From contig NW_006766910.1 of the NCBI RefSeq assembly GCF_000275845.1, positions 84,831 to 148,830 on the forward strand: a stretch of DNA of 64,000 nt. The letters are read 5' to 3'. The DNA comes from Dichomitus squalens LYAD-421 SS1 (Eukaryota > Basidiomycota > Agaricomycetes > Polyporales > Polyporaceae). The notes beneath the pieces were generated by a model. That model saw only the letters and a program-made list of their open reading frames with translations. It searched no databases and was not told the origin of the DNA. The translations under genes and the position numbers were made by a program. This document shows, piece by piece, positions 2,361 through 50,738 of this stretch. Numbering within the stretch: position 1 is the first letter of the stretch; each line of letters starts with the position of its first letter.

Positions 2361-4128
2361 CTACAACGTGTGTTCCTGTGGCACTCCATTGATTTCTCCA
2401 TCCGCTACTTCTCCAATCGCTGATTGATTGTGCAGTGAAGAGGCTTGTACCATGCTATCAACAGTTGCTGGTAAGGTAACGGAATCGGCTATGTCTGCTC
2501 TGCACGCCGCATCGAAGCCTGGGTCTTCTATGTCCCAACTTGCAGCTTCTATGCGAGCAGCAAGGGATCCAAGTGTTGAAGGGTGGCACAATGAACCAGC
2601 GTTGATGCTTTGTGATATGTGTAGATCATTGGAAGCAAGGCAAACAACGGTTTTTTGATGGGCCTCTTGAAGATCAAGCATGAAATGCGAGACGATCATG
2701 CACGATATACTGGTTTTAATCATCAGGAGGTAGGATATTGGGCGAACCGTATGTCTGCAGGAAGTAGAGGGACTTACGGAGCAATCAATGGGGATATCTC
2801 GTCTCCCGAACTGATATTAGAGAACTATTCTACAGTAAGTCTCACGGTTGAAGCTTTGAGACATCGCCAGAGTTGCAATCACCTGGGATAGCTGAGAAAG
2901 GGTTAGAAGAAGTACATTCAGCAGCAGTAATATCCTAGGCCATAATCAGATGAGAGCTACTATGAGTTATCCAGCGCTACTGCCTACCCAAAGTAAGCCA
3001 TCCCTGTGTGCAAGTAATCAATACAAGGAGTGACGAGTGAGAAATATGAGCGAACCATCTCGCAACATGACCCCCATGAGGCTTTTCGCAGATATCGCGC
3101 TAACTGTCTGCTTCAATGTGCTTCCATGGAATGACAGCGTTGTAATAGCGATAAGCAAGGTGTCGGCTATAATGGTTCCAGTGCGAGTGATGACGGTTAC
3201 TGTCATTGGGAGGGTGAAACCCTTGTTCCAGAAAAAGCCGCATCCAGGTACATACTTCTGCAATGAGTTGAATTGGAACCAGGTTATAATGCAAGTCTTC
3301 ATCACATACTTTTGACCTAGGGAGGAGGGGTAATCATCCTCGCTTGAACAACCTAGTATAGGGTCGACGGAAATAGTGAAATTATATCCAAACTCGATCT
3401 GATGAGCCATATGCATTAGCAGCGACTATCAAAGAAGGGCATGACTGACCATCCCAGTTGCAACAGGCATAAATGATAGTACAAGGATCAGGATTGATAC
3501 ACCCCTATTCTGGCTCAGTGCAAATGCCCTTAGGCTAGCGAATACTGCAGAATATAGGTCAATCACCAAAAGATCAAGTCAACGACTGGCTCACAGGTCA
3601 CTTACATGCGGGTGGGATTATAGACAGATATACGCAGACATAACCCGCCACTGTAAACCCAGTGCACCTGGAATGGTCCATTGTTGTATGAGGTGTGAAT
3701 GCTCTATAATTGTGTCGCTTACCTCTTCACACAATTGTGGTGAGCAGGCAATACTGTGCAAGTAAAGATAATCTGCATACCTTTGCGGGCAATGCGCCTA
3801 ATGTACATAGGGTGATAACTTGACTGATCAGATTGATATAGGTGTTACAGACGTATAAACAGGTAGAGAGTCTGCTGGCAGTTCCTGGACGGAATAGCTT
3901 CGCCTCCCGAGGCAGCGACAAGATCCAATCATATATCACCAATACTACAGAGACATATGCCAGTATTCTCCCTCCGGTGTAAGAAGGCTCACCTGATAAT
4001 GCCATGTCTAAGCAGCCTTGTAGATACCTAAGAAAACTGTGAGAGGAGTTCAAATGTGGTCATTTAGAGACAAACCAAAAAGACTTCAATGTGAGATCGT
4101 CTACTGAAATTTCTGAAAGAGAACTCAT
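2361..4128 (-). CDS. DUF6533 multi-pass membrane protein, copy D1 (class I)
   Basis: Multi-pass membrane protein of the DUF6533 family, whose biochemical role is unknown. Start ATG at 4128 (MSSLSEIS), then the signature VIYDWILSLPRE, FASLRAFALS, DPILGC, IIADTLLIAIT and the C-terminal VSHFMLDLQEAH block, ending at 2361. About seven hydrophobic helices are visible, followed by a polar cytosolic tail. The frame is continuous only if two 2-nt microexons are spliced: AG at 3723-3724 (introns 3725-3782 and 3668-3722) and AA at 3256-3257 (introns 3258-3309 and 3200-3255). Without the first, exon 3 meets exon 4 out of frame. Exon 2 is 35 nt, as in every other copy checked. The copy appears intact. 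Class I sister copies are D2, D3 and D8. Confidence 0.8.
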
Positions 4129-6743: not shown

Positions 6744-8384
6744 CTACAGGGGGAGCATCATACCTGCAAGTACGTAGGATGAATCGTTTATCTCGGCGAC
6801 AGGAGTTTCCAGGACCGTGTCGTCTATGTGAGCTGCAATTGAGCCCAATGCCGGTACGAAGCTGAGGCCAGACGAAATGATGCTCTGAGATGCACACAGT
6901 GAATTGTACCAGACGCAAATTTCGGAGCTTCTCTTGTAAGCATCTTGTAGATTGAGCATGAAGTGCGAGACGAGAACGGATGATATCCTGTGTAGCAGGG
7001 ACCGTCAGGCTATAGCCAAGATTACACACTGCGACGCGTGACAAAGGTGTGAGACGCACGAGGTAAGGATCTGTGATGCTGTGTCGCCAGTCATGAGGTC
7101 GTGAAGCTGAAGCAGGATCAATTTGGGCGATGATCGAATAGCAAGCTAAGTATTGACGCTTACCGTGGGTTGTTGGAGCACAATGAGTAGCAGGATGTTG
7201 GATATCAAGAGCGCCCTTATCAGTGCCAGAATCAGATCAACTCTCGGTGCTGACCTTCCTGTAACTCACGCAAAATATATCATTCCTGAAGGTCATGCGT
7301 CAGCTAACGAGCCAATCAAACCACCGCGAGAGCGTACCGTTGCGCAGCAGAACCCCAATGAGGCTGTTCTCAGTCAGGACATGGGATACACGTTTTTAGG
7401 GAGAATGCCAGGTGAGAATAATCAATGAGGTATCTGCGACGATAGCACAGGCCCGATTGAGGATTGTGACTATAAAACGGAGTGAGACAACGAGTATTAT
7501 TCCGTCTTTCTTGGGACTGACTACTGTAGTGGTCAACGTCAGCAAAACCTAAGTGGCGAGCTGAACAAACGGCATACGTATGCACAAGAGAAAGAGGATA
7601 GTCCAAACTTGGAATACATCCGTGGAAAATGGGGTCGACGACTTGAGCTCCAGCAAATTGATAGCAGAAATCCATCTGGAGTTTCCCTTTCACTACAGCA
7701 ATGTTTGGCTGGGGGGAAAGACAAACCAATCCGGCAGCGAAAGGCATACATGTGAGAGCGAAGACGGATATCGATAGGCACCAGGATTGACTGAGTGCAA
7801 ATGCCCGCAAGCCATAGAACACTGTCAACTGTAGAATTAATCGCAGTAGCATGACACACACTTTTCAGAAAATACCTGCTTGCGCAAGCATGGATAATGC
7901 GGTCGAGATACTTGTCACCCATATGATACGTGTGCAGCTGAATAAGATGACTCTCGTAAGCGCCGTTCGAGACTTTCTACGCTTGTGAAGGTACCCCTTC
8001 ATGATCGTGGTCAGTGATATGTCCCTGTGCAGGTGAAATGAAAACACATACTTTACTAGACCACGGTACGAATACCAACAGCTGACACGCTTCATAGAGA
8101 AGGGTGATATACCGGTTTGCGAAGTAAAGCCAAGTGGAGAGAGACCTGACATTCCCTGCCCAAAACAGTCGCAGTTTTCGAGGGAGTGAAAGAACCCAGT
8201 CGTATACCACCACCACTAATCAAAGTAATTTAAAAATGCATTGGCACGAGAGGAGTCATACCAGACATCACAACGCTCAAGTAGAATATGACAGACCTAA
8301 AAGAAAGACCGTTAGAATTTTATCTTATGACCTGTGAATCACGTACATCCAAAAGTATGTCAAAACAATGGCATCTAGTGTCAT
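6744..8384 (-). pseudogene. DUF6533 membrane protein, copy D2 (class I), one stop codon
   Basis: Start ATG at 8384 (MTLDAIVL), exon 2 of 35 nt, then VVVYDWVLSLPRK, VFYGLRAFALS, VDPIFHGC, IVADTSLIILTW and the LNLQDAYKRS tail ending at 6744. Predicted microexons are GG at 7995-7996 and TA at 7522-7523, each flanked by AG and GT and needed for frame. The only lesion I find is TAA at 7396-7398, just after LTWHSP; the frame downstream still matches D8 (GVLLRNG against GVMLRDG). The copy is either freshly inactivated or has an exon boundary I have not resolved. Function of the family is unknown. Confidence 0.7.
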
Positions 8385-13768: not shown

Positions 13769-15468
13769 TCATACTATCCTCTCCTCTCTGCGCGTGATAA
13801 TACCTAGTACATGAGTTTCAGTCATTGAGCCCACATCTTCTGAAGTACCCTGATCCCAGTCTGTGTCTAGTGGATCTACAAATGGAGCATCAATACGCGC
13901 GGCAAGCGAGCCAGGCGCGGGAGCGAATATCAATGTAGGGGAGCTTGTGGTACGGGATGTATGCATAGGGTCGCCAGATACCAAACCGACGTTCATTCGC
14001 TGGTACGCCTCTTGAAGATCTAGCATAAAATGCGAGACAAGGATAGAGGACAGTCTGAGCAGGGGAAAGAAGAGAGGTCAGTAGGGTCATTCTTCGTTGC
14101 TAGGAAAGGCCCGGACTTACGGAGCCATAAGGGTTGACAGTTGGTCACCACCGGATAGTATGGCGTTGACCTAAGGCTACATTAGCTCTAGATCTGTATA
14201 TAGCGACAGTGTGAGCAAAACATACCGGTGATAATTGTAGCAAGATCAGTAGTACGACGTTCAACATCAATAGTACGCTTGATGATGCAGGAGTCAGGAT
14301 AGGATCTAGATGTACGGCATACCAACCCACATGAAGTACACGATCCCTGTTGTCTCGTCTCAGCATGCTGTAGCACAGATGTCTGAGATGCGCTGACCGT
14401 CTCGAAGCATAACTCCCATAAGGCTTGTCTTTGTAAACAAGCTTGCTGCCCGTCTTACGCTTCGTCCGCGAAGTGACCACCAAGTCAGCGTGATAAGTAT
14501 GATATCCGCAATAATGGTAGATGTTCGGTTGACGATGGTGACTACCGTAGAATCACGTGAATAGGCCGATACGCGATTATTCGTTCAGCACACACTTCTG
14601 CAATAGCTGTCGTCATGCACGAATAAGTCATTGAGTAAGAGAATGGCATACTTGTACCCCAGAGACAGAGGATAATCATCAGATTCTGTGCAACCTGAAA
14701 GTGGGTCGATGACTCCAGAGGGGTGGTATCCAAAGGTGATCTGGTGATTGATATAGATTAGGAGGAGCGACTATTCTAGAAGGGAAACCTACCAGCTCCG
14801 TTGAAAAAGGCAGGAATGACAAGGCGAATACAACAAATGATAGTGTCCACGATTGACTCAGTACAAACGCCCTCAGTCCCGTGAATACTGCGGCTCTCGG
14901 GTCAGAGGAAAGACAAGTGCGAACATCACGGGCGGGATACTCACATGCGGGTGCGATCATTGACAAGTACTGCAGGAGATCAGTTGCGACCTGGATCTTA
15001 CCGCAGCTGAGTAGACGGGGGGTTGGTGCAGATTCCAGTTTGATGTGACTGCAACTCACCTCCTAGTAGATTCAATCAGCCATCCGTATATGGTTCAGTG
15101 AATTTATTACGTTTACCTCGGTAGATAGCCTGGAATACGTCAACAATCCAATCACCTAGCTAACGAGATTGGCATATCTATTGAAGAAGTACAGCCAAGC
15201 AGACAGAGGCCTTGAATTCCCTGCTATAAACGATTCTACTTCTCGAGGGAGGGATTCAGCCCAGTCGTAGAAAACCATCACTGTATTCAAGAATATTAGA
15301 GTGTTGTGATGGATGTGAGCAGCGATACCTGGAATTGCGACCTCCCAATAGTCGACAAAGGATCTGAGAGAGACTATTAGAGGTGCTGCATTAGGGTCGC
15401 TAGGCCACTCACGACCAGTAACAGGACGAGATGATATCATCTAGTCCACCTTCAGGTATCGACGACAT
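13769..15468 (-). pseudogene. DUF6533 membrane protein, copy D3 (class I), disrupted
   Basis: Start ATG at 15468 (MSSIPEGG), then VMVFYDWAESLPRE, VFTGLRAFVLSQ, IDPLSGC, TIIADIILITLTWW, GVMLRDG and LDLQEAYQRM, ending at 13769. Two lesions are visible: an in-frame TAG at 15156-15158 in exon 3 (after NRYANLVS), and a first microexon of 3 nt (GAG, 15060-15062) instead of 2, which shifts the frame into exon 4. The second microexon, AA at 14596-14597 (introns 14598-14651 and 14542-14595), is normal. The later exons still read cleanly, so inactivation is recent. Confidence 0.72.
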
Positions 15469-17065: not shown

Positions 17066-18664
17066 TCATACACTGTAAGAGTTCATCGTATCCATGCCGT
17101 AATCGTCGGTAGAAGCACCGCTCGTATCGTTCCTACCAAACGGCTCATGAAACAATATAGACTCTGGAGTCTCCAATCGACTCATGACATCCAAGGTGAG
17201 AAAAGACGTTTGATGTATCATCCTCTTGTCCGCCTTGTGGAGATCAATAAGGAAGTGGGATACCATGACGGCCGTAAGCCTATAGAGGTCTCAAAATCGA
17301 TGTGCTGGACTACAGATGAACTCAACTCACGGTTCGGAGAATCTTGTGATATAGGTGGTGTTCATCCCATAGGGGCGCACAGGTGTATCCTGTGTAGTAC
17401 TTCAGAGAGTCTATGCCGATGTCTGATAGAAACCATGCTCACCAGAAAGGTGAACGTGAGGTGCAGGGCGTTCAGAAGGCACAGGACACTTCGTATTCCT
17501 CAGTGGCGCATTACTCTTTTGGCTGCATCTCACTTACAAGAAGTACATAGTTCCTGACTGGGATTGAGATTAACAGACACCAATTCGACAAGACCTACGC
17601 ACCATTCTTGTACATCACATCCACAAGAGACGGTGCTGTTCTTCGTGGGCCGCGAGATTTATAGGTTGCACGCCAGGTAAGGCATACAACGGTTGCATCA
17701 CAAAGGATGAGGCATGAACAGATTGCGATGGTCCCTGTATTGGCATTGTCTATCGTATGCTGACTCGTAAAGGCCTTTCAAATCAGAATCATACCCCTGT
17801 CTCAGGACTGTGAGTTCAAACAAAAGTGGTCCAACCGTGTGTATTGGACTCACAGATGACTCGTCCCTGTGGCGACGTTCACATTCGTGATGCAGCCTAG
17901 AATAGGATCATAGTGCTCGTCAACGTGATGGAGATCTCCCTAGAAAGTCTGTTTGTAAGTGATGCATTATCCGGAAGAGCGACATGAGTTACATAATAAT
18001 TGAGAACCAGGGGCACTATTCCCAGAATAAAAACAACTCCGCTAGCCACTCTGCTTTTATTGCTAAGAGCATAGGCACGGAGAGCGGAAAACACTTCTCA
18101 TGATATTAGTACAACCTCGACAACGCCGTAGTGAACACCATGTACCTGCGAATGGGAAGTATCCCAGATACCTCAGGATATCTTCGGAGAAGTGGGTTAC
18201 AATGCAGCTGGTGATTGCTTGAGTTCAGTAGCTATCGGCTGAGATATAAATGGGCCATACTCCTGAACAGTATCAGCGTCGGTCCAGGTTAGGAATTTGC
18301 ATCACTGACCTGAGTTACTGAAGGAAAGAACCGGATCGGGACCATGGCTACATAGTAGATGACAGCGACATAGCGATTGAAAAAGAAGACCATGCAAGAC
18401 AGATTCAACCGTCTACTCCAGAAGAGCTCCAGTTCCTGCTGGAAAGTTATCAAGTGGTCGAACCCAACAAGTGCTAGTGGTACATCAGCACGAGATTCGC
18501 TTGGATTGAGGCGTCCTCACTGACTCGCAGTGGCAACAATGACGAAGTTCATTATAGAACTGCTCATAGGAAGACGGAGTGAGAAGCTAGCGGGTAGATA
18601 CGAGGACTATGACATACTTTGTTTGGAGAAGAGCTACAATGTTACCTGTACCCGAGGTAGCCAT
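17066..18664 (-). CDS. DUF6533 membrane protein, copy D4 (class II)
   Basis: Class II DUF6533 protein, function unknown. Start ATG at 18664 (MATSGTGNIVAL), exon 2 of 35 nt (IMNFVIVATA), the signature LVGFDHLITFQQE, FNRYVAVIYYVAM, FSALRAYALSNKS, ILGIVPLVLNYY, HHVDEHYDPILGC, CLTWRATYKSRG, TTYITRFSEP and the C-terminal VSHFLIDLHKAD, stop at 17066. Predicted 2-nt microexons are GA at 18261-18262 and GG at 17795-17796 (introns 17797-17853 and 17735-17794). All exon joins I checked keep frame; no stop was found. Hydrophobic segments suggest about seven membrane helices with an acidic Ser/Thr-rich tail. Confidence 0.82.
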
Positions 18665-23345: not shown

Positions 23346-24953
23346 TCAACGCCGCACGCTGTATCGATTCCTTATATCCATGTCATACTCGTCGGTGGTG
23401 GCACCACTTGTATCGGTACCATCGGATCGCCTGTTGAATACTATGGACTCCGTAGTCTCGAGTCTGCTCATGACATCCGAGGAGAGGAATGATACTTGAT
23501 ACATCATCCTCTCGTTGGCTTGGTGTAGGTCAATGAGGAAGTGAGACACCATGACTACCGTAAGCCTATGGAGAATTTAGCAATGGTGTGTTGATATATA
23601 CTAAGGGACTCACGGCTCAGAGAATCTTGTGATGTAGGTAGTGTTCAGGCCGACAGGGCTCACTGGTGTGTTCTGTTCAGCGCGTGAGATGCTTGATAAA
23701 GGCTGGTGATAGGAGTTGTAGTTGTAATCACCACGAAGGTAAACGTGAGGTGTAGAGCATTTAGAACAGACAGGAGGCTTTGATTTTGAGAGAATCAGTG
23801 TCACATAACTCGATTTACCGCATCATACTTACAAGAAGTACAGAGTCCCTGACTCGTGCTTAGACCAAATGAAAACATTGAGACCGAATGTACACACCGT
23901 TATGGTACAGCACATCTGCAAGCCCAGGCCCAGTGCCTTGTAAGCCGCGAGACTTATATGTTGCGCGCCAGGTGAGGAATACAACGGTTGTATCGGAGAG
24001 AATGAGAAACGTGCAGATCAAAATAGCTCCTGTGTTGTGCGCTGTCTATCGTATGCTGCATGATAAAGGCCTCGCAAACAAGAACTTACCCCTATAATAC
24101 TATGAGTACGCAACTAGTCTGACTGATTGCCTTGGACTTACAGATGATGTGTTGCCGTTGTGACATTAACATTGGTGATGCAGCCTAGAATAGGATCATA
24201 ATGCTCATCGACATGGTGCAAATCTCCCTAAGAAGTATGTAAGTGTTCGATTCATTCTTCCAAGGGATTTGATGATATTACATAGTAGTTGAGAACCAGG
24301 GGTGCTATACCCAAAATGAAAACGATTCCGCCAATCGCTCTGCTCCTGTTGCTGAGAGCATAGGCACGGAGAGCTGAGAACACTATTCACCATATCAGCA
24401 CGATCTCTACGAGATTGTGGGTCACACCTCCTACTCGCAAATGGTATATATCCTAGGAACCTCATGATATCATCGAAGTAATGAGTTACAAGGCATCTAG
24501 AGATTGCTTAACGTGAGCGGCCAGCTGAAACGTGAACGGGCCATACTCCTGTTTGTGTGTGAGCACCAGTAGATTCCAGACATAAGTGTTACTGACGTGA
24601 GTGAATGAAGGATAGAAACGGATGGGGAGCATAACGACGTAGTAGACAATCGCCGTATAGCGATTGAAACAGAAGAGTATGGAGGATAAGGTCACCCGTT
24701 TCTTCCAAAAGAGATCTAGCTCCTGCTGTATAGTTATCAAGTGGTCGAATGAAATGAGGGCTGCGGTCCCGTTAGAAAGTTTTTGGCTGGGATTGTAGTT
24801 CCATCACTGACTAGCAGTGGAAACGATGACGAAGTTCATGATAACACTGCTCAATCGAGAATCTAGGATAAGAATCCAGCCGGAATATACATAGACTGGC
24901 ACTTACTTCGTTTTGAGAGTAGTAAGGATGTCCTCAGTACTCATGGCGGTCAT
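23346..24953 (-). CDS. DUF6533 membrane protein, copy D5 (class II)
   Basis: Start ATG at 24953 (MTAMSTEDILTT; the second Met at 24944 is also possible). Then IMNFVIVSTA, FDHLITIQQELDLFW, FNRYTAIVYYVVM, MFSALRAYALSNRS, LNYYGDLHHVDEHYDPILGC, VFLTWRATYKSRG, NTTYITRFSEP and VSHFLIDLHQAN, stop at 23346. Predicted microexons are GA at 24547-24548 and GG at 24090-24091 (introns 24092-24141 and 24030-24089). Every splice junction checked is GT-AG and in frame, so the gene reads as intact. It lies between relic X2 and kinase F1 on the same strand. Role unknown; about seven membrane helices. Confidence 0.82.
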
Positions 24954-31457: not shown

Positions 31458-33066
31458 TTATATGCTATAAGAGATGGATTCTGTGTCATCGTCCTCGATA
31501 ACAGCACGGATTGAATCGTCACTAAATGGTCTATAGAATACCATGGACTGGGGAGTTTCCAGCCTGCCGATACTATCAAGGGATATGAATGACTCTCGAT
31601 GCATCCTCCTCCCATCGGCTTCACGTAAGTCAATGAGGAAGTGGGATACCATGATGGCAGTGAAACTACAGCGTTGTCAATGATAGCAGGCTGAAAGACT
31701 GTATCAAACCACTTCACTCACGGCTCGGAGAATCGTGTGATATAAGTGGTGTTCTTGCCAACAGGGCGCAGAGGTGTATCCTGTGAAATATCTCAGAGTG
31801 CTATGAGTATTTCTATGCACAAATCAGACTGACCAGGAAAGTAAATGTGAGGTGGAGAGCGTTCAGTAGGCACAGAACACTTGTGAACTATTCAGCCACG
31901 CTTCGCATATTGCCATCATTATACCCACGAGAAGTACATGGTCTCTGTATAGTGTTCAGATACAGGAGACATCAGTGAGACTCAACGTGCACACCATCCT
32001 GGTAAATCACGTCCACAATGGAAGGTAACATCCTTCGTGTACCACGATATTTCCAGGTTGCATGCAAGGTAAGGCATACAACACTTGCGTCACAGAGAAT
32101 GAGACATGTCCGGATCACAACAGTTCCTGTATTGTGAGCCGTCTACTGTAAGTTGCATGGTGAAGGCGGTGCAGATTGGATAATTACCCCTGCTTTATTG
32201 TAAGCCTACGAAACGTGAATCTGATGAGCTTTGACTCACAAGTGGTTTGAGGCTGTCGACGTGTTTACATTTGTGATGCAGCCTAGGATAGGATCATATT
32301 GCTCGTCAACGTGATGCAAGTCACCCTTGAAACTGCATAAATATGTGGTTCCCTCAAGGAGTGTCATGACTTACATAATAATTGAGAACTAGGGGCATGA
32401 TTCCTAGAACAAATACAAGCCCGCTCACCACCTTACTCCTATTGCTAAGAGCGTAGGCACGGAGAGCTGAAAACACTTCTCAAAGCTTTAGCAAGACCTG
32501 TACGACGCCATACCCAACACCATGTACCTGCAAATGGGAGGTAGCCTAGAAACCTTAGAATATCTTCGGTGTAATGGGTCACAACGCATCTAAGAATTGC
32601 CTGACGTCAATAGCTTCTATTGTAGCTGTGACATTGATGGGCCGTACTCCTGGGAAGCGTCAGAAACACCATAGCAGCATCACCATGATCGAGGCATTCA
32701 TTTACTGACCTGAGTGACCGAAGGAAAGAATCTGATTGGGAGCAAGGCAACATAATAACTGATAGCCACATAGCGATTGGATAGGAATAGTATGGAGGAC
32801 AGGTTCAACCTTCTCTTCCAGAAGAGCTCCAGTTCCTGCTGGACAGTCATCAAGTAGTCGAACACAACAATCGCTAGGGCCTTCATTAGCATGCTGTCCA
32901 CCGATCATGACGTCACTGACTGACTCGCAACGGCCACAACAATGAAGTTCATGATCTGACTGCTCGAAGGTTGATCAATTTACAGACACCAGCTGCTATA
33001 CCCAGAGAGTCGTGCGTACTTTTTCTCAAGGACGGCGACCATGTGCGCCATATTGGGGGTAGCCAT
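31458..33066 (-). CDS. DUF6533 membrane protein, copy D6 (class II)
   Basis: Start ATG at 33066 (MATPNMAHMVAVL). Then IMNFIVVAVA, VFDYLMTVQQELELFW, SNRYVAISYYVAL, FSALRAYALSNRS, LNYYGDLHHVDEQYDPILGC, TTYITRFSEP and VSHFLIDLREAD, stop at 31458. Predicted microexons are GA at 32648-32649 and GG at 32188-32189 (introns 32190-32239 and 32127-32187; the donor GTAATT is weak). All other joins are in frame, so it reads as intact. Two TGACGTCA octamers lie in introns at about 32605 and 32909. It is followed downstream (lower coordinates) by relic Y1 and kinase F1, and preceded by the F2 fragment. Confidence 0.8.
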
Positions 33067-37965: not shown

Positions 37966-39553
37966 TCATACATCCCTGAGGCTCACTGAATCCTCTCCGT
38001 AGTCCTCCGTAGAAGCATCGCTCGAATCGCTACCAGATGGAGCCCGAAATACAATAGACTGTGGAGTATCCAGTCTGCTCATGACGTCCAGCGATAAGAA
38101 AGACATCTGGTGGGTCATCCTTAGGTTGACCTCATGCAGGTCGATGAGAAAGTGCGACACCATGACGCTCGTAATCCTTGAGAGTTGTGAGCGAAAGGTA
38201 GCTGGCCAGTCAAATTGACTCACGGCTCGGAAAATCTCGTGATATATGTTGTCCCAGTACCAATCGGACGTACTGGTGTATTCTATGAGCTGTGTCAGGG
38301 ACATCTGGTGGGGAATGGGAGATGGAATCAAGCCCACCACAAAGGAGAATGTCAAGTGGAGAGCGTTCAGGAATGACAGAATGCTTTGTGTTCGCTCAGC
38401 AACGTCCGGACCAAACCTCCTCGGTAATAGGGAGCTCACAAGAAATACATGGTTCCTAGGAACCGATTAGGAGAGTTGATAACAAAAAGGACAACGCACG
38501 CACCGTTCCTATACATCACGCTGAGAAGGGAGGGCAACCCGCTCTGTGAACCATGCGATTTATAGGTTGCACGCCAGGTAAGACAAGCAACACATGTATC
38601 AGAGAGAATGAGACATGTAGCTATAGCAGCGGTGCCTGTGAGGTGTCAACGACAAGCTCTTCGGAAGAGCCATTCCCACATACCCCTGCATGTGCGTAAG
38701 CGTCTGGACCCACAAAATAGTGCGTTCTGTACTCACAAATTGCTTGTGTGCGTCGCGACATTGACATCTGTGGTACAGCCTAGGATGGGGTCGAATCTAG
38801 TCGTGACGTGATGAAGGTCTCCCTGCAAAGCCGGTGAGCGTTTGGTTGAATCAAGGTGGGATATCGAAGTACATAATAGTTGAGAATCAAAGGAACGGAC
38901 CCCAAAATGAATATGATCACACTGAGAGCTCTGCTCTGATTGCTGAGCGCATAGGCCCGTAAAGCTGAGAAAACTTCAGAGGTTGTCAGTAACCCATTTG
39001 TACTGACTGAAATCATGGCGATGACTACGCACTCGCAAACGGAAGGTATCCTAGATTCCTGAGAATGTCTTCAAAGTAATGTGCAACCGTGCAGCTATTG
39101 TACGTCCTTGCGTTAGCGAGTGCCAGCAATGAAATGACGTAGTCGTACTCCTAGATAGAATTCAATCAAAGAACTCTGGCATGTATGTCTCACTTACTGC
39201 AGTCACTGAGGGGAAAAACCGAATTGGAGCCATGCCAATGTAGTAAACAATAGCCAGATATCGGTTGAAAAAGAAGAGGATTGAGGAAAGAGTGGGCCGA
39301 CTCCTCCAGAAAAGCGCCAGTTCCTGCTGGAATGTCGTGAGATAGTCGTATCCGACGAGTGCTAATGTTTTCATTAGTATTGGTCGGTCCTTCACATTGA
39401 CTTGCGCGCACGAACTTGCAGTCGCCACAATGATGAAATTCATGACAACACTGCAGAGATCAGAGCTGTGTCATATGGCTACAAAACTGAAAGAAATACT
39501 ACTCACTTTGTCTCTAGGATCGCGACACTCAGCGCTTCATTTGAGAGACTCAT
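37966..39553 (-). CDS. DUF6533 membrane protein, copy D7 (class II), fully reconstructed
   Basis: Thirteen exons: 39507-39553, 39416-39450, 39198-39361, 39149-39150, 39033-39094, 38873-38973, 38737-38822, 38684-38685, 38504-38635, 38440-38455, 38338-38383, 38224-38282 and 37966-38176. They total 963 nt (320 aa) with a single open frame, and all introns are GT-AG. Two exons are only 2 nt (GA and GG). Retaining the first downstream intron (39095-39148, 54 nt) would also stay open in this copy, so D7 alone does not prove microexon A; the other copies do. Signature blocks: VGYDYLTTFQQE, FNRYLAIVYYIGM, FSALRAYALSNQS, DPILGC, LTWRATYKSHG and VSHFLIDLHEVN. About seven membrane helices are expected; function unknown. 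Confidence 0.85.
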
Positions 39554-41301
39554 GGCTCAGAGATGGAATCCTGCGTCCTCAGTTAAGCCGGGCCTCATGA
39601 ACGCCTCTTTATGTAGCCTGGTGAAGGTGAGACAGATGCCCGCTCAACGCCCACTAGCCAAAATAGCATGGGTAAGCCGAAGACAACCTTCACAGACCGC
39701 ATGCCAGTAGAACTCCTAAGGGATGGAGCTTGATGACATTCCTCGGTATGACATCCGATTCGAAGAAGCAATGGACTCGATACCGTCTGCGGATGGCAAT
39801 GCAGCGCTCACCTTTCCCACACGTCACTTCTTCCGTTCAGGGTCTCCTCGAAGCTCAAATACAAGCCTCTCGAATATTGACCAGTGATCACTGCATATTG
39901 ACTGGAAGGTGACTATAAGCAAAATTCAGCGTTTTCGCACCGACGGTGATAGTTAAATCAAGCGACAGAGGATTCCGCTCAAATGGACCGACAAGCAAGG
40001 TCAGTCGCAGTGCCAAGGTCGTTGCAGCTGCGGTCTCATGCCGGAGATCAGGGTTACACAGATGCCTGATACACGTACCTCTTCGTCACCTTTATTCAGG
40101 GTCTCGTAAGTGTATATAGACCTAGTACTAATCGTGTGGGCTTTATATAGACCACCGAACGTTCGAGCGCTGCTCAGCGACTGCGCCTCTTAGCGGTATG
40201 GGAACGGATCGAGAAGGGCTACGTGAAATTTCCCAAGCCTCAAAGCATCGACACCTGTGTATCATAGAGAGGTAGAAAAAGTATGGCAAATTTGAGGATG
40301 AGATAGATGTGCGGCGTTACAAGACGTGAGATCCTAGGCCTGAACTGAGATACGCTGTACTAAATGTGGTACGGAATCTAGGAACTGACGCTTAGAGGAT
40401 ATTCCGCCATGAAATGTGAGGTGATGTATCGCGACAGCAGTAAGGGCATAGTAAAGTCATACTGCCTATGGGATCGAGTTCGTGGACGTGGCTCTACATG
40501 AGAGCGAAGGTGTGCGCAAGGAAGCGAGGGTCTGCACAGAGGACGCTACATTCGCCGTCCACATAGACTTTGAGAGTCGACGAAGAAGGGAGGACGTGAG
40601 AACTAGGTGCGCTCGTATCCCAGGGAGATTCGCACAAGGTGGTGACATATCAACGGATTTAATCAGGATTCAGGTAGTGCAATCAGCTTCGCGAAGAGCT
40701 CCTGGATCCTCCTCGGTGCCTGACAGTGACAGTGCGGGAAATCAGCAGTTGTGGGCTTTCGGTAGGCGAAGCGACTGTAAAAGTTGTGAGACTCAAAGGT
40801 GCGGAAACTGCTCGGAATGCATACCAGATGGCACGACGATCAGTATGAGGAGCATCCAGTGGCTGCGGAGCAGGGGTCGTGGATCAGTGGGCTATGTAGG
40901 TAGACGAATTTGATGCCGTGACGTCAGCAGATACACTAGGGTTGCTTATATGAAACACACCAATTCAGGGTCTACTTGCCCTCAATTACCATCTCCGCAC
41001 AGCGATATCCGGCATTCACGGCTGCATGATATCACATTGAGACTGATGTACTATTTTTCCTTCATTACGAAACTACGGGATAGGATTGGAAAAAATACAG
41101 CCCCAGACAGCCTAGAGCAGTCTGACGTGTGCCGAGAATCGAGGACGTTCGTTAGCTTTGTGCTCCTGCGAGGCCGGTAGTTTCTTGCGTCGAGAGGCAA
41201 CTGGCAGCCATCCGCTTGCGGTCACTGCCCGCCTGTGGGCCGTCCTAGAATATACGAGCGGAAATTACAAGTACGCTCTTCACCGAGCCGTCGATACCGT
41301 C
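39554..41301. other. Spacer between D7 and F3, possible fourth Y relic
   Basis: A TGACGTCAGCAGA string at 40919-40931 matches the one shared by Y1-Y3, and weak similarity to Y3 is seen near 40480-40530. It may be a more decayed Y copy. A 143-codon plus-strand frame at 40482-40913 has no recognisable motif and is probably chance. Confidence 0.35.
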
Positions 41302-43954
41302 TTAGGACTCCTCTGGCACAGGCGGGAGCGGACCGAGGACGTCCAGGTGATCCTGCAGCACCTCGTTCTCGAGCCAGTCCCAGCTCTTTGCCTGCCAAAA
41401 GAGGTCCCGAACAGAAGTATGATCCTTCAAGTTGGAAGCGAGCTCGTAAGTCTCCGCCGAAGGTTTCGAAACTCTTCGTGCAGTCTTCTTCCCGAAAACC
41501 TTGCCAGACTTCGCAGGACCTGTACTTGAGGCCTCCGCCTTGATACGCCGACGGCGAGCAGGACGATCGCTGGGATCAGAGGGAGCGGACGAGTTACCGG
41601 ATCGAAGCGAGCGGTCATAGGCCTTGACTTCGTACCGCGCCTTGAACCAGTCCAGTAACTCGAGAATGAGAGTGTTCAGTGCTTCGTTGGGTTCATCCGA
41701 AGCACGACCAAATGTGATGATTCGGTTGCCGAACTTGAGAGCCCCGTCGCTGGTGATGATGTAGACTTTCGTCTCGGGACATTCAAAAGTGCCTGTGGGC
41801 AGTCGCCTGAAATCGACGAAGTACCTGTTAATGAAGTCCGGCACGTACAACTCCATGTTGTGCGGACAGTAACGGATAACGTTGTAGAGGAGGACATTGA
41901 AGAAGGACTCGATCTCGTCGGCGGTCTGTACGATGTGGAGGGCATCCATGAGAGAAGCGACAGACATGTACCTCCACGTGCCCTATCCTATTGGTAAGCA
42001 GGAGTTATTCGTGGTATCATCAATATGGACGTACAGTTCTCTTCGGTCGCAGAGCCTGATTGACCTCTTCTCCTCGTGAGATGGGTTTCGAGAGCTCCCA
42101 GTCCGCCAGGATGCCTCGCCAAGTCACGCGCAAGGTCATGTCGCCCTCCTGCTGAAGAACGAATGTGGGAAGGATTAGGATGTTCCCGCTGCTGATGTCG
42201 CAATGGAGTATCTTGGACTTGACCGTCACGTCATAGTGGGCTGATCTCGTGAGTCAGTGAGACGTTCTAAGGCGCAATGCACGCACCTTCGATGCTATCC
42301 CCAATGATGCTAACTAGCTGACGGCTGGACCGAAACGCAGTTATCGGAAGGCAGACTTCCTTGAGCACGAGGCGATGATGCCCATAATGTGGCACATAGG
42401 GCGTCGGCTCTTCCTGCATCTCACTGTAGGTACGCTTCACCCGGTGAGGCTCGTTCGAATGATCCTGAACGACATCCACCTTACGCTCCTCCTTCGTTCC
42501 CAAGACCTCGTTCACCCGATAATGGGATAAACGGGTCTCGTGGCGACGAAAAAGATGAGCGCGAACGAGACTAGGTATATTCCTGACGCCGTCCGTATTG
42601 AGCTTACCCAGGATCTCGCGTTCAGAAGCGACGTTCTCATAAATTGACCGCCAGGAGTCTTTGAGAAATACGAATGTTCTCGTCCACTTGCGGTATGCCA
42701 CGTAACCACGGGTGCCTCGACCGATGAGTCCGCGCGTGTGGTAGAGCGGCTCGCAAACAAGAAATTCCTCGTCGTCGACAGTGAGATTGTATCGGGGCTA
42801 GTCTGTGACTGATTGGCAGAAGTAGTCGAGAACGTACTCGAAGACGAAAGAGTCATCGCTCGGGACCTGAAAAGTGACCTGTGTGTCCCTAGCTTCAGCG
42901 ACGAGACCGGGACTGTGACCGTTCACCGTGTTCGTATCGATGGACGGCGGCTGAGGCAGTATAGGGGAGAGTGCCTTAGGGAGCGGGGTACCTTCTTCGT
43001 AGCCGACCACAGGAAGATGGAAGGGGATGTTGACGTCCGCAAGGGTGTCCATCAACCGATAATCGTCGGAATCCTTCTGAAGCAGCGTCGCCGAGGTGTC
43101 AAAGCCTTGAGCCTCGTCGTCTATGACGGTGAGCGCTAGGAGCACTTCGACCAACGCGTCCGTGCGTAAGAGGTAGTTCACCTTCTCGCTGACGAAGACA
43201 CCAGATCGGTCCCAGCGCATGACACGGAATTCCCTTCCGATCACGAGCAGAGAGAAGGCGGCGGTGCGATGTTGGTAGAGGAAGAGCTGATCAGCGTAGG
43301 CGATGAGCTGGCCCCACACCTTCTTTCTCTCTTCTAGGGCCTCCTCTTCTCCCTCCTGTGCCTCGTCGAAGGGGTCGTTCTGAGAGTCCTCCTGCTTGAA
43401 GTGGAAGAACACCTGTTGATACTCCCAGTTTGGCCGACCTTCTTCGAGCTCGAGATCCTTCCTAAAGAGAGCGGCATTGGCACTGTCCCTTTCAGCGTCG
43501 CCCAGATCGTGGCTGTGAGGAGAAAGTCGTATGACATAGCGATGGACTTCGTCGACCATCCCCGTCTGCCGCGGAGTCTGTTGAGAGGACGGCGCAGCGG
43601 AGTTGGAGTCGATCGGAACAATGAGAGTGGTGTTCGGGTGCTCCATGCCCCATGAACAATGACCAAGAACGTTTGCATTGATCACATTCGCCTCGGACAA
43701 CGTCAGCACAGGGTCAGCTTCAGAGAACTTGCGCCACTCACGAAGTCTGAGGCAAGTTGATCCTCAGGGATGCGGTTGCTGACCTCGGCACGCTGCTTGT
43801 AGTTCTGGAAGACGTCTTCGAGGGCGATGCTGATCTTTGACATCTGCACAGGCGGAAATCTATCGGAGAGCACGCGTCGAGGTATCGGAAGAAGCTTGTC
43901 GAGGAAGCCCAATAGCGATAATCTCACCGCATTCCCGCACAGATCGCGATCCAT
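41302..43954 (-). pseudogene. FunK1 kinase, copy F3, one nonsense codon
   Basis: Exons 43742-43954, 42287-43691, 42035-42240 and 41302-41982 total 2505 nt and stay in one frame except for a single TAG at 42798-42800, where F4 has Trp in the motif TDWPRYNLT. Other motifs are preserved: GRGTRGYVAYRK, KEVCLPITAF, the catalytic loop ILHCDISSGNIL (HCD, not HRD), ILADWELSKP and GTWRYMSV. The C-terminus ends at VPEES, about 45 residues shorter than F4. It is either a very young pseudogene or a strain-specific null allele. A decayed homeodomain-like gene lies just upstream, as an intact one does for F4. Confidence 0.82.
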
Positions 43955-44736
43955 ACTTGATCGCTGTCGCGTTCGGTGTTTTGAAACCCCTAGCTCTCGC
44001 CTGCTGCAATCGAAAGGATCCGTCTCTGGGAGAGAAAAAAGAACCTTCAGTATATAACTGCACCTTTAGCAGCAGTTGTTGAGAAAGGACGTACAAGAGT
44101 CAATAACGCTCGAGAGAGGATGTGCGCGATTTGACTTGGGACTTCGTGAATGTATCTCACGATCTTGGTGGTTGGAGAACAACTGGTATGGGCGCCAAGT
44201 TCGATCGAACAGGTCGGAAACGCCCATGTCCTTTGGTCAGTGGCTGGTCTCGTCAGTAGGTGGCGGGGATGCGGCACATCCTCCCAGTGGCAAACTACGC
44301 GCCATTCACTATCAATGTTCGGCATGATTTACGAGGATGCGAGGCGTTGTCACACCGACATCTGACATTTGGCCATCCAGCAGTGTCTCTGCGAGTCGAG
44401 GCGGGAAAGCGCCACATTGCATCAGTACCGCGGAGCGTCCAGGACCGAGCCGGGCCGCATCACCTCACGGTGGCGAATGTCCGAGGGACGTGCCCGACCC
44501 GAGAGCCACAACTTACCTAGACGAACCCTGTCTCGATTATGCTCGAACGATACAGATCAGAGTATAGATTAAAGGCTGCGAGTAGGAGGCGTCACATGAA
44601 GATGCTACAGACCGGGTGGGGTGGTGCATGCCGCGCGAGTGATGTGTAACAGAGACACGCGACGACACGCGATGCTTCAGAGGTAAGCGATGAACAAGCA
44701 AGATGGCACAGGGCTGAGTGCGCAATTCGCGTGTCA
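43955..44736. other. Spacer between F3 and the homeodomain relic
   Basis: 43.96-44.33 kb resembles the leader and promoter region of F4 (57.13-57.45 kb): the shared ATGGGCGCCAA string and flanking bases occur at about 44189 and 57398, and also near 28957. No gene supported in 44.33-44.74 kb. Confidence 0.45.
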
Positions 44737-45600
44737 CACTAGCGCTACCATACCGCTACCCAGGCGCATGTTCTGCTCCTCAAGCCACCTCCCTAGCTCG
44801 CCGAGCGTTCTTGGGATGCTGTCCAATGATACATCGGAGCCCGATGAGATGACGGAGTCCGTCGTCGCCGTGAGAGGCGATGAAAACTCAGCTTCGGGTT
44901 CGCAGGAATGCTCTGCAGGGGCGGGATGTAGGGGACAGTGAGCTAACGACCACTTCGCTAGTGCCCGCTGCTTTATCTGGATCGCGCAAAGTGAGCCTCT
45001 GCGTCGTGTGGTGCCCGCAAGCCAAGCATACGTACACACCAAGCATGTAAGGCGCAGCGAGTCGCGGCTCCGTCTTCTGCCGCTTCCAGCAATTCGCCTG
45101 AATTCCTCAAGTCTCACACCCTTCGCAACTGGGTATGCAGCGAGTCTTGGTGGGTAGCTCCAAGAGCTGGCCTTACATGGTCATAGCATGTACGTTGCTG
45201 GAAATCGCCTATGGATCATTTCTTGGTGAGACTGAGATCGAAGATGTCGACGACTTGAAAGTTTATACTGGCCTATTAATGCACTTCGCAGCATGACGTA
45301 CGCTGTTTTGGGTAGTATCCCGGCGGTGGAAGCGCCATGGACATTACCCCAGTACAGTCGCGTTGTACACGCGCGTGGCTGACTTCCTGCTAAGCGCGAA
45401 TGAGGCGCAATGATGACTTCAGGCCATGTCCGATAGAGTAAAGGGTACCTTGGAGGGAAGTAGATAGTAGGAGCTGCACCCAGCAGTGGTATTGGGTTGA
45501 CTTCTTGGACATAACCAATGAACAGACCTCTAGATGTCTGACATGTGAGTACTTGGCCAACCCCAGATGAATTATGAGACATTGAATGGCTATGAAGCCT
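44737..45600 (-). pseudogene. Decayed homeodomain-like gene next to F3
   Basis: Matches the intact gene at 59731-60405 in order: the VQLLLSTSLQ-type leader sequence (about 45470), STAGILPKTAYVMLRSA (about 45275-45335), a degraded CIPSCEGCET block with stop codons (about 45085-45130) and the C-terminal SLDSIPRTLGELGRWLEEQN (about 44760-44820). The helix 3 region is destroyed by stops and substitutions, so DNA binding is not expected. It shows that the homeodomain-like gene and FunK1 were duplicated together. Confidence 0.72.
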
Positions 45601-45929
45601 TGGACCTGCCCGTACTCAATGATGAGTGTGTCGAGACACGTACCTCGCTGGAAACCCGCAACAGCATTTTGCTGTCATGAAGGCGCGGAGAGTTCACCTA
45701 CTGCTGTACGGCACGCTCGTTGGCCAGGCCAGCGAAAAAATTACAAACACGAATATGCAACATACCAGGGGAAGCGCATGCATGAGCCGGATACATGTCT
45801 CGAAGTCGCCTAGATAACCTACATGAGCCGGAACTGTCTCTCTGGAGAGCTGCGTAAGGGTGAGTGGTAGTATCCGACGCAGATCACGCACTCCGTATCA
45901 TGTCATTGACCTCGAGTGTATGTTGTTGC

Positions 45930-47275
45930 CTCAGTTTGCGGGATACGGGACAGAGGTGGGAGTGCTGAGCGAGATGCTTGAAGACGCGCGCCTGTCGCAA
46001 CCTCGAGCTCATCGCGTCCCACGAGGTCCCACCGTCCACGCCGTCCGACACTTGCATCCGTGAACTTCATGGCCTCACATGCTGCTCGACACCTTCTTGC
46101 TACCCTGTTCTCTGTCCCTTCTGCGATAAGCTTCAAGGTTACCCTCAATCTTGGTCCCCGAAGACAACGCACGCCCAGGCCCCAGATGTGTAGATCGCCA
46201 TCGCGACCATTCGGGACGCGCGCGCCCTCATGGGCTTGGTATCCAAGAACCCCATCAAGCAGGCATCGACATGAGCATAGCTGCAGGTGTGTAGCATTGT
46301 CTACGGTACAGCGCGATAGGGACAGACGGGGTCGCAGCGGGCGATTTCTCCGCGTATGCCCTGCTTGCGTCTCTTAGGCGACTCCTTCATCTCTAGGTGC
46401 TGCCAATTTAGAGTGGGACTGGCGCATGCGAGGACCGCTGACCGGCTGCTGGACGCGGTCGTCTGCTACAGCTGCACTGGTGGTCGGACGGGACGCAGTG
46501 AGTGACTCCTTTTACTCCCCTTTCTCCCCATTTGTAGCGCGTACTGCGCGCGGCGTCATCGTGCAGAATAGCGAGTCGTAGGCTCTAGATTTTCGAGTCT
46601 AGCATCGTCTTGCTTCTGTGCGTGACGCTGCCCACGAAGTCCAGTCGACACTGCACATGCACCGTGTGCGTGCGACGCGTCACCGCGGGCGGCATTTTCT
46701 TCTGCGACACCTTGAGACGACCTCGCGCTGACTTTCATTGCTCGTCAGGGATGCCAAACCTCAGTCCTGTCAATGGCATGGAATGCTTCCTTCACTACGA
46801 ACAAGGGCTCGGATGGCTTGAGCTACCCGCCAACGCCTGTGTACGGCTTGTCCCCATAGGTCCTCGTTTTTGCGTTCGACCGTTGTCTGCGTCTGCGGCA
46901 ACATTGTCTTCCGGCGCCCTCTTGACAGCCTCCTGGTGAGAAGTGGACGCACTTGGACGGTTACGAGGTCCACTGCGGATATACGCAGATCTTAGGAGTG
47001 CGCGAATGAGTTGCGCGCGAAACGGTGCTGCGTGCGGTTGGCCAAACACCGGGCGTGATGCGGGCGTCGATAAGGTGGGATAGACAGGTGGAACACTACG
47101 CTCGCTCGGGACAAGGGTGTGTATAATTGCAGATGCCGGATTCATTCGAGTATATATGTGGAGATCTATGTAAGTCCTGCTAGAATTTGACTGGCGTATT
47201 ACCTGTGACTTGCAGTGCTGACAGTTGCTTTCGTGTAGAATCACGCATCATCGAGTGATTTGGCGTCAGGTAATA
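45930..47275 (+). pseudogene. Relic X3 of the unidentified triplicated gene
   Basis: Third copy of the X sequence. It shares the MLEDARL...RAHRVPR block with X1 (about 45975-46020 against 11480-11530), GDFSAYAL (about 46340), and the HARTADRLLDAV block followed by a GTGAGT donor (about 46430-46505). A shared intron-end context lies at about 47200-47240. Stops are frequent. It is the most decayed of the three and precedes D8, as X1 precedes D3 and X2 precedes D5. Confidence 0.45.
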
Positions 47276-47537
47276 AATTAATTAAAACTCTAATATAACG
47301 GCGGCTGGTCGGCGAGTGCTGCCTGTTCTCACATAGCATCATGCAACTCGCTCTTGAGCACATTCCTGCTACTTCTACGCTTCAATCACTCTCTCGCGCT
47401 CGATGCACGCTGGGGTGATCGGCATGGCAGCGGTTATTCCCAGCCTTAGCGTGGACGTCTATTCGTGGTCCTGTCTCCACGACGTAATGTTGCACCGCGA
47501 TGCGATCAATTCATAAACTGCACATTGATCGCCATAA

Positions 47538-47905
47538 GGGCCGCTCAATTCTTGAGGACGCAGGACGCAGGACGCACTCAGAGCTCGTTTGATGGATGTG
47601 ATGGGCTAGCTGAACCTGCCGCATACGGCAAGATACCAACCTCATTTCTCGTGCCCGTTGTTTTCCAAGAGGTCTGTCGTGTCCCAAACCTCACATAAAA
47701 ATATGAATCGCGAGTATGTTGAAGACGAAAGCCTTCCACGTCGATTGACACTACCCTTGAGGCACTTTGTGAGGGGGGAGGAGTGTTATCGTCGCTCGAG
47801 GGGTTTCGAAGGCGAGCTTGTCGGCTAGTCTCTCTTAGCCCATCACCTCCATCAATGGCCTCTGAACGCGTCCTGCGTCCTGCGTCCTCAAGAATTGAGC
47901 GGCCC
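47538..47905. mobile_element. MITE-like element with 70-bp terminal inverted repeats
   Basis: The sequence at 47538-47607 reappears inverted at 47836-47905. Both begin GGGCCGCTCAATTCTTGA and then contain three tandem GGACGCA-type units; roughly six of every seven bases match over 70 positions. The 228-bp core has no coding capacity, so this looks like a non-autonomous DNA transposon. No clear target-site duplication was found; the flanks are AT-rich (CATAA and TATAG). Confidence 0.75.
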
Positions 47906-48968
47906 TATAGACAACTATGATCGAGAGCATGCATTAGTAAAACAAATTGACAGGTCTCTAAGTAGTGTCCGGTTGGGCGTTCAGGTCTCTGAAACTCGAA
48001 GGAACCCCCGACCCAAAGAATCCTATCTTGATTGTAAGTCAAGAAGCACTGCGCTGAGGTCGCCCAGCTGTACAATCAATCCCCGGTGTGGGGAATGCGA
48101 CAACACAGACTCCTGTCAAGGAAGACATGGCGTTCGCCAGGCACTCGGCTCTCCACATCCCTGCTCAAGAGGGTAAGCTGCCCTGAGACTCCACGAACTC
48201 TGGACAACGGTTCGCCTGCCCACACAAGTTGGAATTTCAGCGTCCATCATATTCAGAGGTGGACGTCAACCGCGCTCTCCTCACCATTCCTGCCGATGCG
48301 TATGTAGCTCGGCACTACGCGGCGCATACCTCTGCGACGCTGTTGGCCACGTAGTCGAGGGAGAACCCGTGCGGTCTATCAGATCATGTATCGCCGCGCC
48401 TTAGATGATTATGGATGCCGGTAGGCCAATGTACTATCCATGAGCAAGATCGACGTGTTCACGGGCATCGCGTCGACCGACAAGCATCGTGGGCAAAGGG
48501 CGGCCCGTGCAAGACAGAGAACCTACGTTTACTGAGTATGGGCGTGCCTGCAGTCTCGTTCACCACACCCGACATTGTGCTATTGAGTTAGTGAGTATTT
48601 TCTGACCCATGCTGGAGTAGACTATCCCTTTCGCAACTACCACAAGAAAGCAGCACCAATAAAAGGCAGATCGGACTCAAGTGCGTGCGAACAGGACGCA
48701 GTCCAGCAGACTACAGGACATATCAGAGAGGGGACACCCGCAGAGCTGTCTTTGAATAGAGACAAGTCTAGAAGCTACGTCATACAGAGAGAGTATCTAA
48801 GGGTCTAGAACCTGGGAGGGGGAGATGTCACAACTAACATGATGACGAGAGCACCATTGGTGTGCACGAGTACCTAGTGCGAGTCGAATATCAGCCAATC
48901 ATGCAATATTTGAGCCGAATCAATCGGACACGGTCAACGTACTGACCTGAGTATAGTCTTTCAAGGTT
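47906..48968. other. Intergenic stretch between the MITE and D8
   Basis: Small frames only; no conserved motif on either strand. Confidence 0.45.
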
Positions 48969-50738
48969 TCACACTTCAGCAGCCGCCCCGCCTTCACTGA
49001 TTTGCTGAATCTCTGTAGCAGTTACTGTATGCTTCTGTACTGCCTCGGCATTCTCGGCATCAAACGTATCTTGAGCATTCGGCGAGAAGCTGTTTGGTTC
49101 TTCAACCTCATAGTCCTCCCATCCGGGGTTTTGGAGGTCAGATTTCGGCTGGTCTATGTGGGTGGCGATCGAACCGAGTGCATTTGCGAAGTTCAAAGAA
49201 GGGACGCTCATAGTGTGCGAAGTGTGGAGCGGATCATTGGAAGCCAAGCCGACGACCTTCCTTTGGTAGGCTTCTTGGAGGTCGAGCATAAAATGTGATA
49301 CAAGAATGGAGGACAGTCTGCTCAGAGATTGTGATTGTCGCGTGAGTGTTTGACCCCCCTTATGAAACCATGCACTCAGACTTACGGGGCACTGAATACC
49401 GCCACAATATCTCCTAGGGTATCGAAGAACTGTCACGCACATTGAGTATAGTTCAATCCGCAAGGGATGATGAATTCCAACCGAGAGTTCCTCCACAAGG
49501 AGCTGGGCGATATTGAGAACAAGAAGAATACTGAGATGTGCGACTGTCAGATATATTCCTGAGTAGCTCTCACAGATAACCCACCCGAAGTAAAGCATCC
49601 CTAAGCATACCACATCAGCCTCGGATTCAAGGACATATAGGGGATGAATTCACCATCTCGTAGCATCACTCCCACAAGACCCTTCTCGGATATTGCGCCT
49701 GCGGCCTGTCCAATAGTTTGCACACGTAGAGACCGCCAAGTGAGTACGATGAGTAGTGTATCGGCAGCAATAGTGCATGTCCTATTGATGTTGCCGACTG
49801 TTGAGAGATGAGATTAGGCTACCGAGGTTAATCCGAGAGACAGCACTACACACTTCTAACAAGGATCGATTATCAGCCAGACAAAAGCATTGACTTGACA
49901 TGTGACCTACTTTCGGAAAAGGGATTCGGGCTGAACGATATCATCCAAGCATCCCAGGATCGGGTCCTCAAGACCACTAAGATGGTAGCCGAATGTCACC
50001 TGGTGAATAGGATAGGGTGACCCTAGGGGCAAACCAAGAAGACAGCTACTTACCATGTTCGTTGCAAAGGGCAGGCATGAGAGGATCAAAATCAAGGAGG
50101 AAATCCTCCAGTCCGAGCTGAGCGCAAAGGCCCTGAGACCAGTAAACACTGCAGGTGTCAGATGGACAGATGTTTCGTGGGAACGTGATCAAGTTGAAGT
50201 GGCACCTACAGGCAGGCGGCAACAAGGATAGATAGGTAAGGACAAGATTTGAAAAAGCTATACCGGTGCAGCTGTGAACGTCAGCACAGCTATTGAGATG
50301 AAACAGGAATGCCCAAAACTACACCTCTAAGAGCATATTTCTGAGCAACTGGTAACCCCTCGACTCGTGTGCCAACAAACGTACCTTGGTAGACAACGAG
50401 GTGTTGTAACCAAGGAGTCCCATTGTTTCGTCGAGGAGATTGATATACCTGTTTGCAAGGTACAAAGCCACGGATAGAGGTCGAGCACGTCCCCTGAGCA
50501 TCAACTGTGCCTCTCGGGGGAATGTAAGCAGCCAGTCATACACAACGACAGCTAGAAAAGCCCACATCAGACGAGGAATTGATGCATAAGATTTTGGGAC
50601 GTACTGGGTGCTGTGACATCGCAGTAATTTTCGAATAACCTGTAAGAGACAGTAAGACATTGATGTCATCTTCAGAGTATTTTGTCCGCACCCAATCGCA
50701 TAGGAAGCGACAACTTCATCTGTAGATGAGGAAGCCAT
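48969..50738 (-). CDS. DUF6533 membrane protein, copy D8 (class I), fully reconstructed
   Basis: Thirteen exons: 50692-50738, 50605-50639, 50385-50551, 50325-50326, 50210-50271, 50054-50148, 49911-49999, 49854-49855, 49654-49797, 49585-49600, 49482-49530, 49386-49429 and 48969-49317. Total is 1101 nt (366 aa), open throughout, all introns GT-AG (48-65 nt mostly). The start is ATG at 50738 (MASSSTDEV). DUF6533 signature: NYCDVTAPTVVVYDWLLTFPRE; later blocks are FTGLRAFALS, DPILGC, AADTLLIVLTWR, GVMLRDG and VSHFMLDLQEAYQ, then an acidic tail. Microexons are AG and AA. Exon sizes 47, 35, 62 and 16 nt equal those of D7, though the proteins are well diverged. Multi-pass membrane protein of unknown role. 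Confidence 0.87.

Follow-up and report, generated by a model that had tools for sequence, protein, structure and literature searches.

Putative two-nucleotide coding exons in the DUF6533 membrane-protein genes of Dichomitus squalens

Exons of a single nucleotide have been described in a plant survey, and the term "2-nt" is absent from its main text as far as the consulted sections of that paper go (PMC8831610). For filamentous fungi, functional microexons had previously not been described, according to the accessible part of a paper on Trichoderma (PMC11121469). Here we analysed a stretch of 64,000 nucleotides of the basidiomycete Dichomitus squalens LYAD-421 SS1 (contig NW_006766910.1, positions 84,831 to 148,830), termed the window in the following, which contains eight genes, D1 to D8, for membrane proteins of the DUF6533 family, all on the minus strand. 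For Coprinopsis, a partially available report describes the DUF6533 protein SNB1 as necessary for the patterning of fruiting bodies, with seven predicted transmembrane helices (PMC10949477). Judging from the DNA sequence and its comparison with paralogs, each of these genes very probably contains a genuine constitutive coding exon of only two nucleotides (2-nt exon) at a position termed site B, and most of them contain a second one at site A. A literature search with several ways of writing the term yielded no relevant paper on exons of this length; its two hits were a rare-disease database and a paper on HLA-F.

Sites B and A in the eight window genes

Site B lies between the exon encoding the DPILGC motif and the exon encoding the ADxxLIxLTW helix. 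A preliminary description of this locus had proposed for all eight genes an AG-NN-GT arrangement on the minus strand, NN being the 2-nt exon, and we found it at every proposed position: NN is AA in D1 (3256..3257), D3 (14596..14597) and D8 (49854..49855), TA in D2 (7522..7523) and GG in D4 (17795..17796), D5 (24090..24091), D6 (32188..32189) and D7 (38684..38685). The proposed length of 48 to 61 nt for the flanking introns was confirmed by measurement in all eight genes. The upstream intron B1 and the downstream intron B2 are 52 and 56 nt long in D1, 54 and 52 nt in D2, 54 and 54 nt in D3, 57 and 60 nt in D4, 50 and 60 nt in D5, and 50 and 61 nt in D6. In D7, AG-GG-GT is located between B1 (38686..38736, 51 nt, GTGAGT..GCAG) and B2 (38636..38683, 48 nt, GTATGT..ACAG), the codons are TTG-GGC and no alternative within 15 nt restores the frame. 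In D8, AG-AA-GT is located between B1 (49856..49910, 55 nt, GTAGGT..TTAG) and B2 (49798..49853, 56 nt, GTGTGT..ACAG).

As had also been proposed, the exon upstream of site B leaves two nucleotides of a codon, the downstream exon begins with the last two nucleotides of a codon, and insertion of NN restores the frame in D1 to D8. The residues across the junction are K-I in D1, D3 and D8, T-I in D2 and L-G in D4 to D7; K-I of D8 is also present in the public protein P0001 (LFRKIG). The claim that splicing as one intron would disrupt the frame of all copies has to be restricted. It holds for the donor and acceptor on which it was based, but not for D1 to D4 if the sites are shifted by up to 15 nt or an intron is kept. 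For D5 to D8 neither such shifts nor retention give another frame-keeping solution. Exons of this length had moreover been called extremely rare, which needs the qualifier that within the DUF6533 family of this genome a 2-nt exon is the rule. D2 contains an in-frame TAA at approximately 7396-7398 (minus strand), directly after LTWHSP, and is possibly a truncated or decaying copy.

The case had been understated in one respect: besides site B in all eight genes, a second 2-nt exon is found in seven of them. This site A shows the same arrangement approximately 470 nt upstream of site B, between the DUF6533 exon and an exon starting with C|TGC or similar. The gene models contain it in D2 (GG, 7995..7996), D4 (GA, 18261..18262), D5 (GA, 24547..24548), D6 (GA, 32648..32649), D7 (GA, 39149..39150, introns of 47 and 54 nt) and D8 (AG, 50325..50326, introns of 58 and 53 nt), and the serine encoded there in D8 is present in P0001 (LSTKSCTG). 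In D1 it was identified by eye (AG, 3723..3724, acceptor AAG), since the automatic model had set other introns there. D3 does not have it.

Reading frame and splice sites in the DUF6533 paralogs

DUF6533 (PF20151) is a very large family in this genome, with at least 150 scored matches in the 40.3-Mb assembly of 116 contigs. Six of the eight window genes (D2, D4 to D8) pass the Pfam cut-off; D1 and D3 do not appear in the list of 150 scored matches, and in the tree they group with D2 and D8. The public proteins closest to D8, with the hand-joined D8 as query, come from Dichomitus squalens itself (98% and 96% identity). The gene set comprised 98 genes, the eight window genes and 90 further loci of the same genome, and was modelled with our own spliced-alignment program, which aligns a protein profile to DNA, allows introns in any phase and exons down to zero length, and penalises frameshifts. 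Models with more than 115 bits after two rounds were regarded as usable. This applied to 82 genes, and the other 16 were excluded from the counts. Altogether, the models contain a 2-nt exon at site A in 65 genes, at site B in 71 and at both sites in 57. With a length below the limit of 15 nt, flanking introns that have a GT and an AG of their own and a frame requirement, these putative exons would qualify as ultra-short microexons.

The frame requirement was determined in a test in which exons shorter than 10 nt were forbidden, the junction columns were neutral and the long interval could add 0, 1 or 2 unknown bases at equal cost. At site B, 69 of the 82 genes required +2 nt (modulo 3) and a single gene +0, with no call in 12. 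The result for site A was +2 in 68 genes, +0 in two and +1 in one, with no call in 11. The control consisted of ordinary introns from these genes that had been lengthened with pieces of other introns; 139 of 153 gave +0, two gave +2, two gave +1, and ten remained without call.

In the +2 intervals we counted AG-N(L)-GT with L ranging from 0 to 30 and a minimum of 38 nt left on either side, taking the expectation from dinucleotide shuffles. AG-N2-GT is present in 69 of 69 intervals at site B (7.0 expected) and in 67 of 68 at site A (8.0 expected). The sole exception at site A is L001, where the frame test took an early acceptor; the model of this gene gives an AG exon with a GC donor and a first intron of 100 nt. 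A chance origin of AG-NN-GT is ruled out by this occupancy together with the frame test and the lengthened-intron control. A longer middle exon was also rejected, as no frame-fitting length besides 2 comes near every gene: lengths 5, 8 and 11 stay close to background, and the largest excess, a spacing of 20 nt at site B, amounts to 13 of 69 intervals against 4.3 expected (threefold).

Several other spacings are in excess as well. L = 0 occurs in 50 of 68 intervals at site A, all explained by NN being AG (47) or GT (3), and in 24 of 69 at site B, where 14 are explained (GT in 13, AG in one) and ten are not. The excess of L = 6 at site B (48 of 69) arises because donors of the form GTNNGT generate such a spacing. 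Spacings of 7, 9 and 12 at site A and of 9, 12, 13, 19 and 22 at site B are two- to threefold up, and these minor excesses probably stem from the relatedness of the sequences.

Five paralogs lack one of the flanking introns, and all of them have exactly two bases at the position of the 2-nt exon. Intron B1 is absent in L005 and L020, where the exon extends across the dinucleotide (..AAA C| and ..AGA C|, respectively). Intron A1 is absent in L032 (..CAG AA|A TGT) and L040 (..GAC AA|A TGT), and intron A2 in L020 (|GC-G TGT) and L054 (|AG-A TGT); the models of L040 and L054 are weak (85 and 51 bits). In the tree, which does not include L054, L005 and L020 form one group together with the L020 orthologs of other polypores (Shimodaira-Hasegawa-like approximate likelihood ratio test, SH-aLRT, 84). 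This group nests in a larger one (84) consisting mostly of microexon-bearing genes, and L032 is located in another (94). Because of this placement, the intron absence in L005, L020 and L032 looks derived, and L005 and L020 may share one loss.

Seven public proteins of D. squalens were found, of which P0017 was left out; five span site B and six were assessed at site A. The residue count expected from a 2-nt exon was observed at site B in all five (P0001, P0002, P0003, P0004 and P0007) and at site A in four of six (P0001, P0003, P0004 and P0007). P0001, which corresponds to D8, shows the predicted residues at both junctions (LSTK-S-CTG at A, LFR-KI-G at B), and P0007, which corresponds to L029, is identical to our L029 model at both. 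The Polyporales proteins P0008 to P0014 align with L020 at site B without gaps in five of seven cases (not P0012 and P0014), which has little bearing on 2-nt exons since L020 itself has a single intron there. The Armillaria borealis protein P0022 is without the stretch directly after site B that the near-identical, contig-derived P0018 has in full; gene finders may stumble in this region too.

AGY codons account for 45 of 46 serines at the site-A 2-nt exon, compared to 317 of 1222 (26%) elsewhere in the same genes, a difference whose nominal p-value is not to be taken literally because the genes are akin. As far as can be read from the sequences, this bias is a joint coding and splicing signature, the two bases serving both the codon and the AG|GT context. 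At site B, the second codon encodes Leu or Phe in 55 of 71 genes and the first Lys in 26 of 71.

Evaluation of alternative explanations

The assumption of 2-nt exons is thus supported by the frame test over 82 paralogs with its control, the one-intron paralogs, the public proteins, and the codon and splice-site signatures. Some observations weigh against it. No usable main model was obtained for 16 of the 98 genes, and the frame test made no call in 11-12 of 82. D3 has three bases, GAG, at the site-A position (15060-15062); because of these and an in-frame TAG in its DUF6533 exon (15156-15158), approximately 100 nt upstream of GAG, D3 may be a decaying copy. P0002 has two extra residues at site A, P0005 keeps a 54-nt second intron, and P0003 and P0004 were judged only by ungapped comparison with paralogs, not with their own loci; as models, the public proteins give indirect support. 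A comparison of NN conservation with intron divergence in close paralogs yields little contrast, as related introns have an identity of 0.66-0.67 and unrelated ones already 0.61. Another frame-restoring single intron (shift of up to 15 nt) or a kept intron is available in 34 of 71 genes at site B and 47 of 65 at site A, leaving 37 genes at B (D5 to D8 included) and 18 at A in which nothing else restores the frame. The commonest shifted pair of donor and acceptor offsets recurs in nine of 71 genes at B and 19 of 65 at A; as an offset shared by the whole family it was rejected, since none covers the family.

We consider it very unlikely that a single intron of about 100-130 nt is removed, with AG-NN-GT arising by chance and the frame being kept by gene-specific shifts of donor or acceptor. 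Solutions of this type with shifts of up to 15 nt exist in 32 of 71 genes at site B, among them D1, D2 and D4, and in 44 of 65 at site A; they come within 2 bits of the used site pair in seven and 13 genes, respectively (the latter including D6), and P0002 seems to use one at site A in a D8 allele. At site B, however, D3 and D5 to D8 offer none, and D1, D2 and D4 would need donors scoring -4.0 to -7.1. AG-NN-GT in every +2 interval at this site, lengthened ordinary introns that ask for +0 and not +2, and the two bases kept by paralogs without one intron argue against it as well. The unit might instead be a longer exon or include a retained intron (NN together with intron 2, for instance, or with intron 1). 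This would fit D7, whose 54-nt second intron at site A can stay in the mRNA without loss of frame, as in the public model P0005, and in-frame retention at site B is possible in D1 (both introns), D2 and D3 (intron 1). Stop-free in-frame retention is nevertheless possible in just six of 71 genes at B and 12 of 65 at A, and the lengths of the whole intervals are evenly spread across the three remainders, which renders this explanation extremely improbable.

Two consecutive U2-type introns separated by 2 nt in a fungus also call to mind stwintrons, in which an external intron has one of its splice sites interrupted by an internal intron and a two-step removal leaves no bases; they are documented in ascomycetes in the consulted parts of two papers (PMC5639578, PMC12403724). 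Complete removal would leave the flanks two bases out of frame in the 69 (B) and 68 (A) of 82 genes that require +2. Both introns have a donor and an acceptor of their own, the two exonic bases between them are kept in the one-intron paralogs, and the extra residues are present in public proteins, so that a stwintron is scarcely credible here. Finally, the 2-nt exon might be real and act as a regulated switch, its skipping (by a zero-nucleotide recursive site AG-AG|GT at site A) or inclusion determining a truncated or a full-length protein. NN is AG in 45 of 65 genes at site A, which places two AGs directly before GT as in recursive splice sites, but the second AG has a G at position -3, a poor acceptor context, and NN differs from AG at 20 of 65 A sites and 70 of 71 B sites. 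In P0001 and P0007 the exon is included, and we regard a switch as unlikely. A zero-nucleotide recursive splice site proper was rejected; an exon of zero length does not fit the frame.

Splicing order, age and comparison with known systems

Introns of the length found here are generally handled by intron definition. Each 2-nt exon would be flanked by two ordinary short U2-type introns, mostly about 50-60 nt long, that are recognised in this way. At site B, NN would complete one codon with its third position and open the following one, and at site A it would supply the first two positions of one codon. Without NN the remainder of the protein would be out of frame, and an mRNA that skips it would presumably decay. 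It is not plausible that two spliceosomes occupy a 2-nt exon simultaneously; that the two introns must be removed consecutively is therefore a sound inference.

Including exonic positions, donor 1 scores higher than donor 2 in 58 of 65 genes at site A and 51 of 71 at site B. If intron 1 is gone, the score of donor 2 rises from 1.9 to 2.6 bits at A and from 2.95 to 4.69 bits at B. Because donor 1 is stronger and donor 2 improves in this manner, removal of intron 1 first is weakly favoured, perhaps at somewhat better than even chances and less at site B. NN would then join exon 1, bettering the exonic context of donor 2, and intron 2 would be removed afterwards. The intronic positions alone give 7.26 bits for donor 1 and 3.31 bits for donor 2 at site A; the corresponding values at site B, 6.73 and 6.16 bits, leave donor 1 a small lead, so that support for this order is weak there. 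An example against it is the 9-nt exon of potato invertase, where the second intron is removed first, as cited in the available part of PMC4674806.

The site-A 2-nt exon is also found in canonical DUF6533 genes outside the expanded group, namely L009 (GA), L057 (CT) and L016 (CG, identified by eye), whose models are weak (52, 38 and 40 bits, respectively). Because these genes have it, site A appears to predate the split of the canonical and expanded DUF6533 groups in this genome. At site B, L009 and L016 contain an 8-nt exon (GGGCATCC and AGGCCTCC, respectively) in the same frame, two codons longer, which suggests that the site-B exon changed its length at least once. Obligatory 2-nt exons might be ancestral and hard-wired across the DUF6533 superfamily of mushroom-forming fungi, with about two hundred of them in the present genome and many thousands in Agaricomycetes, and upheld by an efficient routine in which intron-defined splicing proceeds consecutively and a 2-nt exon is nothing unusual; we see the chances of this as evenly divided.

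Exons so short are hardly recognisable as exons, which makes this family a natural test of the limits of intron definition and consecutive splicing. One genome offers dozens of natural variants in dinucleotide, splice sites and intron lengths, from which order and rules can be derived directly. It is also a large and little-studied membrane-protein family that is prone to wrong gene models where gene prediction fails to accommodate an exon of two nucleotides.

Zero-nucleotide recursive splice sites are known from Drosophila and vertebrates (cited in PMC4674806). They lie within long introns, which they subdivide, and no coding bases remain. The arrangement described here resembles them in that AG and GT stand nearly back to back, and the AG-AG-GT form of site A is similar. 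With fungal stwintrons, as presented in the consulted part of PMC5639578, it shares two U2-type introns that need consecutive removal; nothing is left between the introns of a stwintron, whereas here two coding bases would be left, and the two introns each possess a donor and an acceptor. The P450 microexons of Phanerochaete chrysosporium are likewise very short exons between short introns in a white-rot basidiomycete, and the shortest exon stated in the accessible part of that paper has 6 bp (PMC1184071).

The 1-nt exons of plant APC11 and VPS55 are alike in being ultra-short coding exons that are missed by annotation and evolutionarily conserved, and intronless copies absorb the exon into a larger one there as well (consulted parts of PMC4674806 and PMC8831610). 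The APC11 authors, too, propose intron definition with introns removed one after the other (PMC4674806, same part). According to these sources, the plant exons comprise one nucleotide, belong to few-copy genes and are confirmed by RNA-seq and RT-PCR (reverse transcription polymerase chain reaction), whereas those of Dichomitus comprise two nucleotides, occur in a fungus, usually twice per gene and in dozens of paralogs, and are known from sequence.

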